From NCBI RefSeq assembly GCF_005405345.1, contig NZ_BJDW01000013.1, forward strand, positions 1-59,432: 59,432 bases of DNA. Reading direction: 5' to 3'. The notes under the pieces were generated by a model, which was not told the origin of the DNA, made no database searches, and worked only from the letters and a program-made list of their open reading frames with translations. The stretch comes from Enterococcus viikkiensis. Its GTDB lineage: Bacteria; Bacillota; Bacilli; Lactobacillales; Enterococcaceae. Shown piece by piece: positions 41,881 through 47,055 of the stretch; the first letter of the stretch is position 1; every line of letters starts with the position of its first letter. A program made the translations under genes and the position numbers.

Positions 41881-42576
41881 ATGGTTCGAGTTTTAGTTTT
41901 GACCAAAAATATATTGGCGGAAGAAGGAATTACTAAGAAATTACAGCATCTAAACTATGAGGTTTTTTGTTCCACTAGTATTCTGGATGAATTGCAATCA
42001 AACGGACATATGCCTGAGTTAGTCAATTATTTTCCAATCATTATTATTGGTGAAACAATCTCCAGCTATGAAATGGAAATACTGTTGCCAAAGCTAAAAA
42101 AACATGGGCAACAGATTTTTCGTGAAATCGATCACCCGCTTAGCGAAGACGAAAAGAGCCAATTATTGAATCACGGACTAAGTGGTTATGTGCAAAGTAG
42201 CGATTCTATTGAATTATTACGGGAAAATCTAGCGGAGGTTATGGCCGGTTATCAAAATTATGAGCCAATTGAAGCTGAGGCCTGTTTTAAAAAAGAATCG
42301 AGAGGGCTTTCAGCGATGACCTTGATTAATTTATCTACGTTAGAACTGCAAGTGTTAGAGAAATTACGTAGTAAGCCAGGAGAGATTATTTCTCGTGACG
42401 AGTTATGCATGACGCTGTGGGGAAATGTTTCTCAATCTCGTTTAGCACAGCTTTCCTCGTTAGTGAAAAATATCAAATTAAAATTAGAAATTCTTGAAAT
42501 AGACCAAGAATTAATACAGACAATTTGGGGCAAAGGCTATCGAGTGATGTCGGATCCAATTGTACAGAATAAATAG
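41881..42576 (+). CDS. OmpR-type winged-helix regulator with degenerate receiver
   Basis: This 231-residue protein has an N-terminal receiver-like domain (residues 1-120) and a C-terminal OmpR/PhoB DNA-binding domain (about 145-228, LSTLELQVLEKLRSKPGEII... WGKGYRVM). The receiver begins MVRVLVLTKNILAEEG without the acidic pair, and the strand-3 position for the phospho-Asp reads FPIIIIGET, so phosphorylation is unlikely. No histidine kinase is adjacent. It may sense a ligand or act constitutively. GGGCGG precedes the ATG weakly. Confidence 0.8.
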   Translation: MVRVLVLTKNILAEEGITKKLQHLNYEVFCSTSILDELQSNGHMPELVNYFPIIIIGETISSYEMEILLPKLKKHGQQIFREIDHPLSEDEKSQLLNHGLSGYVQSSDSIELLRENLAEVMAGYQNYEPIEAEACFKKESRGLSAMTLINLSTLELQVLEKLRSKPGEIISRDELCMTLWGNVSQSRLAQLSSLVKNIKLKLEILEIDQELIQTIWGKGYRVMSDPIVQNK

Positions 42577-42578
42577 TG

Positions 42579-42624
42579 AGGTGTTGAAAAAGAAGCGTCC
42601 GCTTCTTTCTCAACACCTTTTGCA
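42579..42624 (+). terminator. terminator of the winged-helix regulator gene
   Basis: An 18-bp stem with one mismatch (42579-42596 with 42601-42618, loop GTCC) is followed by TTTTGCATTTTT. Confidence 0.9.
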
Positions 42625-42686
42625 TTTTTAGGAAATGAAACTATGCTAAAATGAACATTAGATACTTTATTAAGGAGCGGAAAATC

Positions 42687-43853
42687 GTGAAAAAAAGAAT
42701 TTTTATGAGTGTACTACTGTTGTCAGCGATAGTTGCATTAGCTGCTTGCGGCAGTTCGGATACGAAAAAACCTACGGGAAGTGACTCTAAAGAAACAACT
42801 GAGACGTCTTCAAAAAAAGAGCAGACAAATGCTGCGGACAAAAAAAGTTCAGTGGAAGCGAAGGTCGATAAGCTGATGGAAAAAATGACATTAGAAGAAA
42901 AGGTTGGGCAGTTATTTTTGGCTCGCGTTCCTGAGCAAAATCAAATCGCGGATATTGAAAATTATCATTTAGGCGGTTATTTATTATTTGATCGGGATAT
43001 GGAAGGCAAAGGTCAGAGTGAATTAAAGCAAACGATCGCAAGCTATCAAGCTGCCAGTAAGACCCCAATGTTTATCGCTTCAGATGAAGAAGGCGGGACG
43101 GTCAGCCGTTTGAGCCGTAACCAAATTGTGACACCAGCTTTTGCTAGTCCCCAGGCGATCTATCAGAAGGAAGGCTGGGATGGGATCACTAAAGATATTG
43201 AGCATAAAGCTCAAATCTTTAAAGAGCTAGGTATTCAATTAGGCATGTTCCCCGACGCAGATGTGTCCACGGATCCTCAATCGTTTATTTATGATCGGAC
43301 GATCGGAATGGATGCGGAAGGGACAAGCAAATATGTAAGCCTGAGTGTCGCAGAAATGAAGAAACAAAAAATTGGTTCTACCTTGAAACATTTCCCGGGA
43401 TACGGCAATAATCGTGATTCTCATGTAGAAATCGTGACGGATGATCGTCCAATCGATGAACTACGGAAAAATGACTTTGTCCCTTTTGAAGCAGGAATCA
43501 AAGCAGGAGCCGACAGTATCATGGTTTCGCATAATATTATCCAGGCCATCGATGGTAATCGGCCAGCGTCTATTTCAAAGTCTGTTCATGATACGATCCG
43601 GAACGAGCTGGGGTTTAAAGGCGTCATTATGACGGACGATATGGACATGGCTGGTCTGGCGAATTTCATTTCTCAGGATGAAGCAGGCTTGCAGGCATTG
43701 CAGGCGGGGAATGACTTGGTGTTATCTTCTAGTTACAGTACGCAAATTCCTTATATTTTAGAGGCCATTAAAAAAGGGGAATACAGTGAACAGCAGCTGG
43801 ATCAATCATTAGAACGCTTATTAACGTGGAAAGCTGAACTTGGTGTCATTTAA
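42687..43853 (+). CDS. GH3 beta-N-acetylhexosaminidase lipoprotein (NagZ-like)
   Basis: This 388-residue lipoprotein has the lipobox ALAACG (Cys about 21) and a Ser/Thr/Lys linker. The GH3 barrel includes SDEEGGTVSRL, KHFPGYGNNRDSH (the His/Asp acid-base dyad of NagZ-type enzymes) and MTDDMDM (nucleophile Asp). It probably removes GlcNAc from peptidoglycan fragments outside the membrane. The start is GTG 42687 with AAGGAG 9 bp upstream; ATG 42651 lacks a site. Released amino sugars could feed the nanE-PTS system, by inference. Confidence 0.9.
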   Translation: MKKRIFMSVLLLSAIVALAACGSSDTKKPTGSDSKETTETSSKKEQTNAADKKSSVEAKVDKLMEKMTLEEKVGQLFLARVPEQNQIADIENYHLGGYLLFDRDMEGKGQSELKQTIASYQAASKTPMFIASDEEGGTVSRLSRNQIVTPAFASPQAIYQKEGWDGITKDIEHKAQIFKELGIQLGMFPDADVSTDPQSFIYDRTIGMDAEGTSKYVSLSVAEMKKQKIGSTLKHFPGYGNNRDSHVEIVTDDRPIDELRKNDFVPFEAGIKAGADSIMVSHNIIQAIDGNRPASISKSVHDTIRNELGFKGVIMTDDMDMAGLANFISQDEAGLQALQAGNDLVLSSSYSTQIPYILEAIKKGEYSEQQLDQSLERLLTWKAELGVI

Positions 43854-43893
43854 CCATCAATTTTTTCAAAAAAATTTTTCAGGAGGTTTTTCT

Positions 43894-43938
43894 ATGTGTG
43901 CATCCATGCGGTTGAAATCATTCGCGTTAACGAACTAA
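43894..43938 (+). CDS. putative macrolide-sensing leader peptide MCASMRLKSFALTN
   Basis: A 14-codon frame starts at ATG 43894 behind a consensus AGGAGG (43881-43886, 7-base spacing) and ends TAA 43938, 53 bp before a Mef-like exporter. Its MCASMRLK start closely matches known macrolide-arrest peptides: ErmDL begins MTHSMRLR and the mef(A) leader is MTASMRLR. The Arg-Leu-Lys triplet is the +x+ arrest motif. The strong ribosome site, start spacing and motif position make chance unlikely. I infer ribosome stalling on this peptide induces the exporter. Confidence 0.75.
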   Translation: MCASMRLKSFALTN

Positions 43939-43991
43939 TCAACGTTTGATGAAGCTGCTTGTTTTGTCAGACGACAAACAAAGGAGAGTTT
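43939..43991 (+). promoter_or_regulatory. leader-exporter spacer with candidate attenuator structure
   Basis: TTGTTTTGTC and GACAAACAA can pair (one bulge), just before the exporter's AAGGAG. An alternative pairing joins CGTT inside the leader codons (near 43925) with AACG downstream (near 43941). A switch between such folds when a ribosome stalls at codons 6-8 would be the expected mechanism. No clear T-run terminator is visible, so translational control is as likely as transcriptional. Confidence 0.4.
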
Positions 43992-45209
43992 ATGGAAAAG
44001 CAACAATGGCTAAAAAAATATTTAACGATCTTATCCGGACAGACAGTCTCTTTGATCGGCAGCTCCGCAGTCCAGTTTTCACTGATTTGGTGGCTGACGA
44101 ATGAATCAAAATCAGCAATCATGTTGTCTTTAGCAGGATTATTTGCTTTTCTGCCGCAAATGTTCTTAGGACCTTTTGTAGGCGTGTGGCTGGATCGTTT
44201 GAAACGTAAGTACGTGGTGATTTGCGCAGATTTATTTATGGGTTTGGTAGCCTTAGTATTATCCTTATGGTTCTTAATCGGCAACCCGGGCTTTGTGGTA
44301 GTGATCGTCGCACTGTTTTTACGCTCATTGGCGAATGTCTTTCATACACCATCGATTCAAGCAATCGTTCCGCTATTAGTGCCGGAAGAGGAGTTAGTCA
44401 AAGCCAATAGTTGGAATCAGTTTTTACAATCCGGAGCCTTTATGCTGGGACCTGTTTTGGGGGCTGCGATGTTTGCGGTACTGCCTCTATGGGTAATTTT
44501 ATTGACGGATTTGATTGGTGCATTGGCGGCCTCTTTTACATTATGGATCGTCGACGTACCGGACATTCCCCGCAGTGAGGAAAGCAAGCAGCATTATTTT
44601 CAAGAATTGAAGGACGGTTTTGCAGTCTTTAAAGCCGATCCGCCGCTACTTGTAGTGATGTTCTTTTCATTCTTTATTATGGCTTTTTATTTACCGCTAG
44701 GAACCTTGTTTCCGTTAATGACCAATGTACATTTTGAATTGTCGGCGTGGTTTGCCAGTGTTGTCGAATTTTCTTATGCGGTGGGTATGATGATCAGCGC
44801 CTTTTTGATCGGCATGAAGAAAACGTGGCGGGAAAAACTGTTCGCTGCTCAGCTTTCAGTTGTGGGGCTAGGCATTACCTTTATCGGTAGCGGCTTAGCC
44901 CCCGCGACAATCACCGGCTATTGGCTTTTTGTTTTTTTCTGTATCTTAATGGGCGGCATGGGGAATTTATATAATATTCCCTTTACTGCTTATTTACAGG
45001 AAACGATCGCTCCGGAAAAACTAGGCAGAGTCTTTTCGCTATTTGGCAGTGTTATGTCTGCGGCGATGCCGGTCGGTTTGATTATCGCAGGACCGATGTC
45101 GGAAAAATTGGGGATTGCGATGTGGTTCTTACTTGCAGGAATCTTCGTTGTGATACTAAGCGGACTAAGTTTGATGTTTTATCAACGAGCAAAAAATCGA
45201 AACCGCTGA
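43992..45209 (+). CDS. Mef-like MFS drug exporter
   Basis: This 405-residue, 12-helix major facilitator resembles Mef-type macrolide exporters: it starts MEKQQWLKKYLTILSGQTVS, has GVWLDRLKRKYV as the loop 2-3 signature and VPLLVPEEELVKANS, both close to Mef(A) positions. It would export a drug by proton antiport. ATG 43992 has AAGGAG; an in-frame ATG 43959 lies upstream without a site. The leader peptide ahead argues for macrolide induction. It could instead be an intrinsic exporter with a different main substrate. Confidence 0.82.
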   Translation: MEKQQWLKKYLTILSGQTVSLIGSSAVQFSLIWWLTNESKSAIMLSLAGLFAFLPQMFLGPFVGVWLDRLKRKYVVICADLFMGLVALVLSLWFLIGNPGFVVVIVALFLRSLANVFHTPSIQAIVPLLVPEEELVKANSWNQFLQSGAFMLGPVLGAAMFAVLPLWVILLTDLIGALAASFTLWIVDVPDIPRSEESKQHYFQELKDGFAVFKADPPLLVVMFFSFFIMAFYLPLGTLFPLMTNVHFELSAWFASVVEFSYAVGMMISAFLIGMKKTWREKLFAAQLSVVGLGITFIGSGLAPATITGYWLFVFFCILMGGMGNLYNIPFTAYLQETIAPEKLGRVFSLFGSVMSAAMPVGLIIAGPMSEKLGIAMWFLLAGIFVVILSGLSLMFYQRAKNRNR

Positions 45210-45256
45210 ATTTGACAATTGTCATGTAGTAAGTAAAAAAAATAATCTAGTAAAGC

Positions 45257-45295
45257 AAAAAAAGCAGCGTACATGAATTGTACGCTGCTTTTTTT
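45257..45295. terminator. bidirectional terminator between the MFS and ABC exporter genes
   Basis: A 16-bp perfect stem (45257-45272 with 45280-45295) with A-run and T-run ends sits between convergent genes. Confidence 0.95.
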
Positions 45296-45297
45296 GC

Positions 45298-47055
45298 TTA
45301 ACTTTTGGAAAATTGTGCGTCATATAGTTGCTTGTAAAAGCCATCTTTTTGCAGTAGTTCTGGATGGTTGCCAATCTCGACGATTTGTCCGTGATCCAAA
45401 ACAAGGATCTGATCGGCGTTTTGGATCGTTGAGAGGCGATGGGCGATCACGAAGCTGGTATGATCCTTCATCATAGCTAAAAAGGCACTTTGAATGTTTC
45501 GTTCTGTCAAAGTATCTACCGAACTAGTCGCCTCATCAAGAATCAACATGGGCGGACGACTAATCATGGTACGAGCAATCGTCAATAGTTGTCGCTGTCC
45601 GTCAGAAAGCTTGACACCGGCTTCACCGACGATGGTATCTAATTTGTCGGGTAGTCGCATGACGAATTCATACATATAAGCATCTTTTAACGCAGCGTAA
45701 ATTTCTTCATCGGTGGCTGATTTGCGACCGTAACGCAAGTTGGCTCGCAAACTACTATCCATTAACCACGTTTCTTGCAATACCATTCCGAATTGCTGCC
45801 GCAAACTATCGCGGGTCAGATGGCGGATGTCAATGCCGTCAATCGTGATCCGGCCATCATCGACTTCGTAAAAGCGCATCAGCAAATTGACTAAGGTTGA
45901 TTTACCGGCGCCGGTCTTACCGACGATAGCAATTGTTTCGCCTGGTTGAACCAACAAATTAAAGTTTTCAATCAAGGGCTGATCTTTTTGATAGCTAAAA
46001 GCCACATGATCAAAAACGACTTTTCCATACGTATCATTCAAAACAACAGCATCTGAATCGTCCGGTTCCTCCACGGGTTCACGCAATAATTCAAACGAAC
46101 GATCTAAGCCGGCAATAGCGGTTTGGAGTTGGATCGTGATGCCGGACAGTTCGATAAACGGTTTGGTAAATTGACTCGAATAAATCGTAAAGCTGGAAAT
46201 GATTCCGATCGTGACCCCGCTATTGGTTCTCAACGCTAATAGTCCGCCAACTAAGCCCACCATTAAGTAAGCCAAGTGGTCAACAAATCGTGAAGAGGGA
46301 TTCGTTAAAGAAGAAGCGAACTGCGCTTTTTGTCCTCGAACATACAGCTCTTGATTCAACGCTTCAAAGTTCTTTTGATTTTGTTCCTCACGTTGAAAGG
46401 CTTTGACGATTTTTTGATTGCCGACCATTTCTGTGATGAAACCGGAAATTGAGCCAACGAGCCTTTGCTGGCTAGTAAAGTATTGTTGTGAAGTCTTGGC
46501 TACAATGTAAGTCAACAGAAAAATGATCGGTGTTGCGACCAAGACGACTAAGGTCAGTAACGGACTCAGATAAAGCATGAAAACTAACGCGACTAAGACG
46601 ACGGTCATGCCGGAGAAGACTTGGTTGAAGACCGCTGAGATCGCTGTCGAAATATTATCCATATCATTGGTGAATCGACTGACGATATCGCCCTTTGAAC
46701 TTTGATCGTAATAGCTTAGTGGCAGTTTGTTTAAATGAGTGAACGTTTCATCCCGCAGTTTTGCCACAGAATCAAAGGCGACTTTATTACCGAGGCGCTG
46801 AATAACGTATTGGCTAATGACAGTGACTAAAAAGATCCCAATAAATAATTGGAGAATTTGGAATAGACGGGAGAACTCTACTGCACCTTGATTCACCATT
46901 TGATCCACTGCGACTCCGATGTAATAAGTCATCATGACCGAAGTAATGCCGCTAGCAATCCCCAAAATCACAGCTGCGATCAATTGTTTAGGGTAAGCGG
47001 CTAGATATGGAACAAACAGTTTTAATGAATGGAAAAAATTCTTTTGTTTAAGCAT
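45298..47055 (-). CDS. efrB: heterodimeric multidrug ABC exporter subunit, EfrB-like
   Basis: This 585-residue half-transporter has six membrane helices (residues about 1-320) and a nucleotide-binding domain with Walker A GKTGAGKST, signature LSDGQRQ, Walker B MLILDEATSSVD with the catalytic Glu, and H-loop IAHR. The signature has Asp in place of the usual second Gly. It pairs with the upstream subunit, which has the complementary defects, as in EfrAB and LmrCD. ATG 47055 follows AGGAGG; it overlaps the upstream gene by 8 bp. Confidence 0.88.
   Translation of the reverse strand: MLKQKNFFHSLKLFVPYLAAYPKQLIAAVILGIASGITSVMMTYYIGVAVDQMVNQGAVEFSRLFQILQLFIGIFLVTVISQYVIQRLGNKVAFDSVAKLRDETFTHLNKLPLSYYDQSSKGDIVSRFTNDMDNISTAISAVFNQVFSGMTVVLVALVFMLYLSPLLTLVVLVATPIIFLLTYIVAKTSQQYFTSQQRLVGSISGFITEMVGNQKIVKAFQREEQNQKNFEALNQELYVRGQKAQFASSLTNPSSRFVDHLAYLMVGLVGGLLALRTNSGVTIGIISSFTIYSSQFTKPFIELSGITIQLQTAIAGLDRSFELLREPVEEPDDSDAVVLNDTYGKVVFDHVAFSYQKDQPLIENFNLLVQPGETIAIVGKTGAGKSTLVNLLMRFYEVDDGRITIDGIDIRHLTRDSLRQQFGMVLQETWLMDSSLRANLRYGRKSATDEEIYAALKDAYMYEFVMRLPDKLDTIVGEAGVKLSDGQRQLLTIARTMISRPPMLILDEATSSVDTLTERNIQSAFLAMMKDHTSFVIAHRLSTIQNADQILVLDHGQIVEIGNHPELLQKDGFYKQLYDAQFSKS

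Follow-up and report, generated by a model that had tools for sequence, protein, structure and literature searches.

Background

In Enterococcus viikkiensis a gene for a Mef-like MFS exporter is preceded by a 14-codon ORF with an SD of its own. The question raised by this locus is whether the ORF encodes a drug-sensing leader peptide and, if so, by what means the RNA between peptide and gene would pass the signal on. Sensors of this class are already known, and an enterococcal leader of the same type is listed for msr(C) (PMC4335068). New here are the host gene, its intrinsic status over most of the genus, and the read-out; among open-licence papers, no title or abstract was found that describes this leader. 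The locus was examined in a contig of 59,432 nt (NZ_BJDW01000013.1), which in its full length is referred to below as the window, and was compared with genomes of the genus, the family and the order and with plasmid and phage records. We consider it likely that the ORF is an arrest peptide of the ErmDL/MefAL type that senses the drug and controls translation of an intrinsic Mef-like exporter.

Results

The leader ORF, the exporter gene and their surroundings

A first-pass annotation of the window had reported a 14-codon frame with an AGGAGG site 53 bp before a Mef-like MFS gene, and these coordinates were reproduced (Table 1), the gap of 53 nt being counted from the leader stop to the exporter ATG at 43992. 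In the window's leader Ser4 is encoded by TCC. A strict leader pattern (GGAGG-N4-11-ATG-N6-WSN-ATG-MGN-YTN-MR), with the reversed pattern as control, matched once in the window's own 2.55-Mb genome, and the control gave 0 matches. A chance ORF was ruled out by the rarity of the pattern, the absence of control matches and the codon-position bias described below. Nor is the leader or spacer a known Rfam element, as no match was found up to E = 1 in 43700-44150, and promoter scans at the locus found sites no commoner than in shuffled sequence.

Table 1. Features of the leader-exporter locus in the window
Feature	Coordinates	Strand	Basis or remark
Glycoside hydrolase family 3 (NagZ-like) gene, possible co-transcription partner, 40 nt upstream	42651-43853	+	domain match, synteny
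Leader SD, AGGAGG	43881-43886	+	sequence inspection
Leader ORF, MCASMRLKSFALTN and stop, 14 codons (ATG 43894, TAA 43936-43938)	43894-43938	+	sequence and codon-position test
Leader codons 4-8, Ser-Met-Arg-Leu-Lys, predicted macrolide arrest motif	43903-43917	+	conservation and ErmDL functional map
Hairpin H1, 13 bp, arms 43943-43955 and 43961-43973	43943-43973	+	spacer fold, -15.2 kcal/mol
Core of alternative hairpin H3, sharing the 3' arm of H1	43959-43981	+	fold prediction
Exporter SD, AAGGAG	43981-43986	+	sequence inspection
Mef-like MFS exporter, 405 aa	43992-45209	+	NCBIfam, Pfam MFS_1
Terminator-like hairpin 3' of the exporter	45254-45298	+	1 found vs shuffle mean of 2.2 in the region; not evidence alone

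The best NCBIfam matches of the exporter are Mef(B) (330 bits, cut-off 800) and Mef(A) (283 bits, cut-off 675). Since both cut-offs are missed, the protein is Mef-like, as first annotated, rather than a named Mef, and macrolide export by it would follow from homology.

A NagZ-like gene lies 5' of the exporter in 13 of the 14 flanking regions examined. The exception is G093, from a different genus of the family: its contig stops about 1.5 kb upstream, and that stretch gave no NagZ-like match. A convergent pair of ABC transporter genes follows the exporter in 8 of the 14 regions, and the other 6 gave no match to it within the stretch examined. The locus looks chromosomal and, in the main, vertically inherited. 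In most species the stop codon of the NagZ-like gene is some tens of nt 5' of the leader, a gap so short that read-through transcription is plausible. Further upstream in the window, a long hairpin of 18 pairs (42579-42618) is present between a winged-helix regulator gene and the NagZ-like gene. The protein encoded at 41881-42576 carries an OmpR-type DNA-binding domain, with no receiver domain among its Pfam matches, and varies among relatives (66-87%, and 43% in G006).

Conservation of the peptide across the genus

The exporter is present in 14 of 20 genomes of the genus, the window's own counted, with 71-98% identity in the other 13; in the six genomes without it, the best matches reach 33% at most or there are none. 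One of these six (G004, lacking exporter and leader) is only 74% complete. All 14 exporter-bearing genomes have the leader, in the forms MCASMRL(K/R) (11 genomes), MSASMRLK (one) and MYSIRLR (two). The strict pattern matched once each in 12 of the 20 genomes, always at the exporter locus (reversed control 0/20); the eight genomes without a match are the two MYSIRLR species and the six that lack the exporter, in which the pattern gave 0 matches. With a mostly syntenic chromosomal locus in 14 of 20 genomes, the exporter deserves the term intrinsic that it had been given. A fifteenth locus was found in G093, where the exporter is 70% identical and the leader reads MCASMRLKTEVVSAR; the upstream sequence of this genome is identical to that of Enterococcus sp. 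PF1-24 (L056). By leader and exporter identity, G003 corresponds to E. devriesei DSM 22802, G002 to E. avium ATCC 14025 and G012 to Enterococcus sp. MJM16. The nearest relative found of the window is E. devriesei (exporter 97.5%). In G010 (L014/L238) the exporter is in two pieces, in different frames or places, and the leader is intact.

An AGGAGG or GGAGG site also stands 5' of the leader at the 14 other loci (L002-L014, L031). Ser4, Arg6, Leu7 and Lys/Arg8 are invariant at all 15 loci and Met5 is found at 13; the two others have Ile at residue 5 and are also one residue short before Ser. At L031 Ser4 is retained despite its codon being AGT rather than TCN. Fitch changes counted on the exporter tree at codon positions 1/2/3 were 2/5/20 in codons 2-8 vs 19/16/19 in codons 9-13, and 2/4/18 vs 17/13/17 when the two MYSIRLR rows were removed. 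The third-position share differs between the two segments (Fisher p 0.0019, with related rows), most of the 15 loci being related and the counts therefore non-independent. Compared with the window, exporter dS is 0.29 to G003 (dN 0.010), 2.2 to G009 and past estimation for the three others compared. Because silent divergence of the exporters is this high, common descent alone is insufficient to explain the peptide. Selection acts on leader codons 2-8 at the peptide level, a conclusion that is well supported. The first annotation had proposed an alignment to test whether the motif is conserved while flanking bases drift, and such a picture is seen at the 15 loci.

The spacer RNA

The spacer at 43939-43991 has no T run longer than 4, and a terminator scan, which likewise called none in the mef(A) leader, called none here. 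In the window H1 begins 4 nt 3' of the leader stop and leaves the exporter SD free, while H3 reaches through the GGAG of the exporter SD in many relatives and in the window touches only the edge of the SD. Twelve loci (G000, G003, G009, G012, G016, G002, G014, G017, G019, G015, G007 and G010) have spacers of this class, with H1 of 12-13 bp starting 4-5 nt after the leader stop and a 3' arm shared with H3. In G006 H1 is altered, 12 bp fully paired and placed directly after the stop. The spacer of G093 is unrelated in sequence; its H1 also follows directly after the stop and an overlapping alternative closes the SD. In G001, codons 11-13 of the leader form 9 bp with the region of the exporter SD (-8.2 kcal/mol as a local fold, not the minimum fold). 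Three RNA architectures of the spacer are thus found in the window's clade under a constant peptide, and the distance from leader to exporter is similar at the 13 aligned loci.

On the alignment of 13 rows (A1), H1 is paired in 95.5% of cells vs 34-47% when slid. For H3 the figures are 92.3% vs 50-66%. Covariation was not above shuffles for H1 (142/500) or for H3 (score 240/500, paired cells 500/500), because the hairpin arms vary little.

The cost of opening the exporter SD was calculated with a ribosome placed either at the leader stop or at Leu7, the footprint covering the P-site codon plus 16 nt, and was compared with 60 spacer shuffles a locus. Opening costs more with the ribosome at the stop in 14 of 15 loci, and in 13 of 14 when all RNA 5' of the footprint is blocked. 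In 13 of 14 loci no more than 4 of 60 shuffles matched the difference between the two states (window, 2/60). For the window the predicted costs are 0.64 kcal/mol (stalled) vs 1.93 kcal/mol (terminating), which is weak closing. Its sister G003 gives 0.31 and 0.24 kcal/mol, i.e. no closing, and 33 of 60 shuffles equal the difference. Taken alone, the closed level was equalled by 27 of 60 shuffles in the window, 27 of 60 in G093 and 55 of 60 in G003; for each of the 11 remaining loci the number was 2-15 of 60. The footprint calculation comes out reversed for G001, which stands against the switch model.

Proposed mechanism and rival explanations

From the short spacer, the lack of a U-tract and the pair of overlapping hairpins, of which one frees the SD and the other closes it, we infer that the read-out is probably translational attenuation, to which the fold model of the window's own spacer points weakly. 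By analogy with ErmDL, drug-dependent stalling and induction would be expected at the window's leader. In the model, the leader would be translated constantly from its consensus SD. When no drug is present, the ribosome would reach the leader stop, where its footprint would cover the 5' arm of H1 (0-5 nt past the stop), so that H3 would form and close the exporter SD. A macrolide or ketolide occupying the exit tunnel would halt the ribosome with Leu7 in its P site, leaving about 14 nt between it and H1. The hairpin H1 would then form, H3 would be impossible and the exporter SD would be free, and the exporter made would pump the drug out. H1 is the stable fold of the spacer when no ribosome is on the leader, so the model predicts leaky expression if the leader is untranslated. 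The peptide would be the constant sensor, and the RNA between peptide and gene a replaceable read-out.

The same sensor might instead act through another read-out, i.e. attenuation of transcription, the route taken by mef(A)/mef(E), or protection of the mRNA from decay. Transcription attenuation is used by mef(E) and msr(D), and leader-dependent mRNA stability is on record for mef(E) (PMC4335068, PMC10314930); moreover, the predicted SD closing is weak for the window and lacking in G003, and the window's closed state alone does not rise above shuffles. Against such a read-out are the 53-nt spacer free of T runs longer than 4 and of a called terminator (by a scan that also called none in the mef(A) leader) and the hairpins overlapping at the exporter SD, which suit translation control in most relatives, and we regard it as quite unlikely. 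It is far less probable still that the ORF is a short uORF serving translational coupling or mRNA loading with no drug sensing. The strong SD, tight spacing and similar exporter distance at 13 aligned loci would fit this role, but coupling would not preserve Ser4, Arg6, Leu7 and Lys/Arg8 through silent changes while later codons drift, nor would it yield the peptide of known inducible leaders.

What the leader senses may also differ from the clinical drugs: sensor and exporter could be devoted to some natural product that binds in the tunnel and is not a clinical macrolide. The chromosomal, mostly syntenic locus in 14 of 20 genomes of the genus makes selection probably older than clinical drugs, and the exporter scores below the Mef cut-offs. 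The motif, however, matches one that is arrested by erythromycin and telithromycin (PMC8298421), and we hold the natural-product reading to be rather doubtful.

Wider occurrence of the leader motif

The pattern scan of genome contigs gave at least 117 stretches. Among the 80 matches listed, 4 belong to the window's clade and 58 lie ahead of further proteins that BLAST matched to the exporter, most of them mef(A)-like (35-38%) and some truncated; of the 18 without such a match, 8 are of ABC-F type (L047, L109, L114 and L062 checked by profile, the others called by N-terminal sequence), 7 are chance-like and 3 have no ORF within the stretch examined. A looser pattern matched in 43 of 395 genomes of the order, and its control in 2 genomes. 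Thirty of the 43 order loci were examined: 3 fall in the window's clade, 14 are mef(A)-like (in one of these the leader is altered and the gene short), 8 are of ABC-F type (L173 checked by profile, the others by N-terminal sequence), 1 (G154) is an MFS gene that follows an apparently shortened ABC-F, judged by eye, and 4 are chance matches. With the NCBIfam Msr-family model, L047, L109, L114 and L173 scored 594-690 bits (cut-off 680).

In genus g13 of the family, six Mef-like exporters with 33-34% identity to that of the window are preceded by longer leaders of 16-20 codons (L033, L035, L036, L037, L038 and L040) with the core I(D/H)SIR(L/M)(R/K). An SD-like stretch is present in each of the five checked for one; the sixth, L037, has its ORF about 500 nt upstream, at the limit of the scanned region. 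No leader with this core was found at g13 loci L039, L041, L043, L241, L245 and L246 or at the other distant loci scanned. By their sequence, the longer leaders are possibly a second family of +x+ leaders.

A broader reading, which we offer tentatively and as less than an even bet, is that Ser-(Met/Ile)-Arg-(Leu/Met)-(Arg/Lys) has long served enterococci and related bacteria as a portable macrolide sensor for intrinsic exporters and ABC-F genes. The peptide would be fixed or repeatedly recruited and the RNA read-out rebuilt freely. It would include the longer family (MLFIRKAMIDSIRLRRG, MIYLMKATIDSIRLKKR), which belongs to a different Mef-like clade in another genus, and the mobile mef, msr and erm leaders would be escapees.

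Mobile relatives and the exporter tree

Outside the window's clade, the nearest relative found is the MFS protein of an ABC-F + MFS operon (51-53% identity) carried on E. faecium and Vagococcus plasmids (L194, L195), with relatives in G361, G154 and G126. The leader of this operon, unlike that of the window, precedes the ABC-F gene; it reads MTASIRLWFNLLK in L194, L195 and G361 (L224), and MTASMRLRFNLLK in G154. G154 (L198/L168) also has a terminator-like hairpin, seen by eye and missed by the scan, and an apparently shortened ABC-F gene before the MFS gene. L260 (NZ_CP131796) carries a short annotated MFS gene of 603 bp beside aminoglycoside resistance genes. On the E. coli plasmid CP044299.1 (L196), a mini-ORF MYLIFM, which is the sequence of the MsrD leader MsrDL, was seen by eye about 200 nt before mef(B).

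In an exporter tree of 63 rows, built by a quick method with SH-aLRT support only, the window's clade of 15 rows (support 84) is joined to the MFS proteins of the ABC-F operon (support 100; 4 rows, three of them identical). Mef(B) joins next (92), and Mef(A), with 18 rows, stands apart; the tree program gives a long-branch warning for the Mef(B) and ABC-F-operon joins. Mef(A) was accordingly dismissed as the closest relative of the window's exporter, the two falling in separate clades. A near copy of the window's gene was not found on plasmids, where no DNA match covered 80% of the query and 6 matches were partial, nor in phages, where all 28 records were below 60%. Among the 40 plasmid matches listed, the best protein match over most of the gene is 52%; 2 plasmid records outside this list have 60-80% identity and may correspond to the short matches H55/H56. 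Of the mobile relatives found, the plasmid ABC-F + MFS operon (52%) is the closest, not mef(A) (~37%).

Discussion

If the arrest-peptide reading is right, the locus would be a chromosomal, mostly syntenic case of a sensor known from mobile macrolide resistance. Its natural variants (Lys or Arg at residue 8, Ile at 5, Cys, Ser or Tyr at 2, and three RNA architectures) make the split between sensing and read-out testable. The locus bears on the origin of mobile resistance leaders, and likewise on macrolide tolerance of a silent, inducible kind among the relatives of E. avium and E. devriesei. That the window's system is part of the pool from which mobile leaders spread, as the first-pass annotation proposed, is possible. 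The same annotation saw in the sensor the logic of mobile resistance genes; this stands for the peptide, which is of the ErmDL/MefAL type, but the read-out, judged from the spacer, is probably unlike that of mef(A).

Comparison with known leaders

In ErmDL the stalled ribosome holds Leu7 in the P site. When the drug is erythromycin, Ser4 can be replaced only by Ala or Gly, position 5 is sensitive and Arg6 and Arg8 are largely dispensable; with telithromycin Arg6 and Arg8 dominate (PMC8298421). Compared by sequence, the residues conserved at the 15 loci include those that either drug needs in ErmDL. The window's leader resembles ErmDL (MTHSMRLRFPTLNQ) in Ser4-Met5-Arg6-Leu7 followed by a basic residue 8, and in its length of 14 residues, on which the first annotation was right. 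That annotation had the two peptides differ after residue 8, which they do at residues 9-14, but they also differ at residues 2, 3 and 8, and ErmDL controls an rRNA methylase.

MefAL and ErmDL are both classed as +x+ leaders (PMC10314930). With MefAL (MTASMRLR) the window's leader shares the AGGAGG site, the sequence Met-x-Ala-Ser-Met-Arg-Leu-(Arg/Lys) and a Mef-type MFS gene downstream. MefAL has 8 codons and a spacer of mostly ~267 nt, belongs to mobile mef/msr elements and has published transcription attenuation, the mef(E) leader being required for induction by this route (PMC4335068). The window's leader, in contrast, has 14 codons and a 53-nt spacer with no U-tract and is chromosomal, and its exporter is ~37% identical to Mef(A) and in a separate clade.

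Lysine at residue 8 has a precedent in the msr(A) leader, listed as MTASMRLK, and the enterococcal msr(C) leader is listed as MTASMKLRFELLNNN (PMC4335068, Table 3). The leaders of msr(C) and of Msr-type ABC-F genes in lactic acid bacteria (MTASMRLRFLLLNK, MIASMRLRFALLNQ) are of the same type as the window's, and differ from it in the ABC-F gene downstream and in a spacer of mostly ~160-180 nt.
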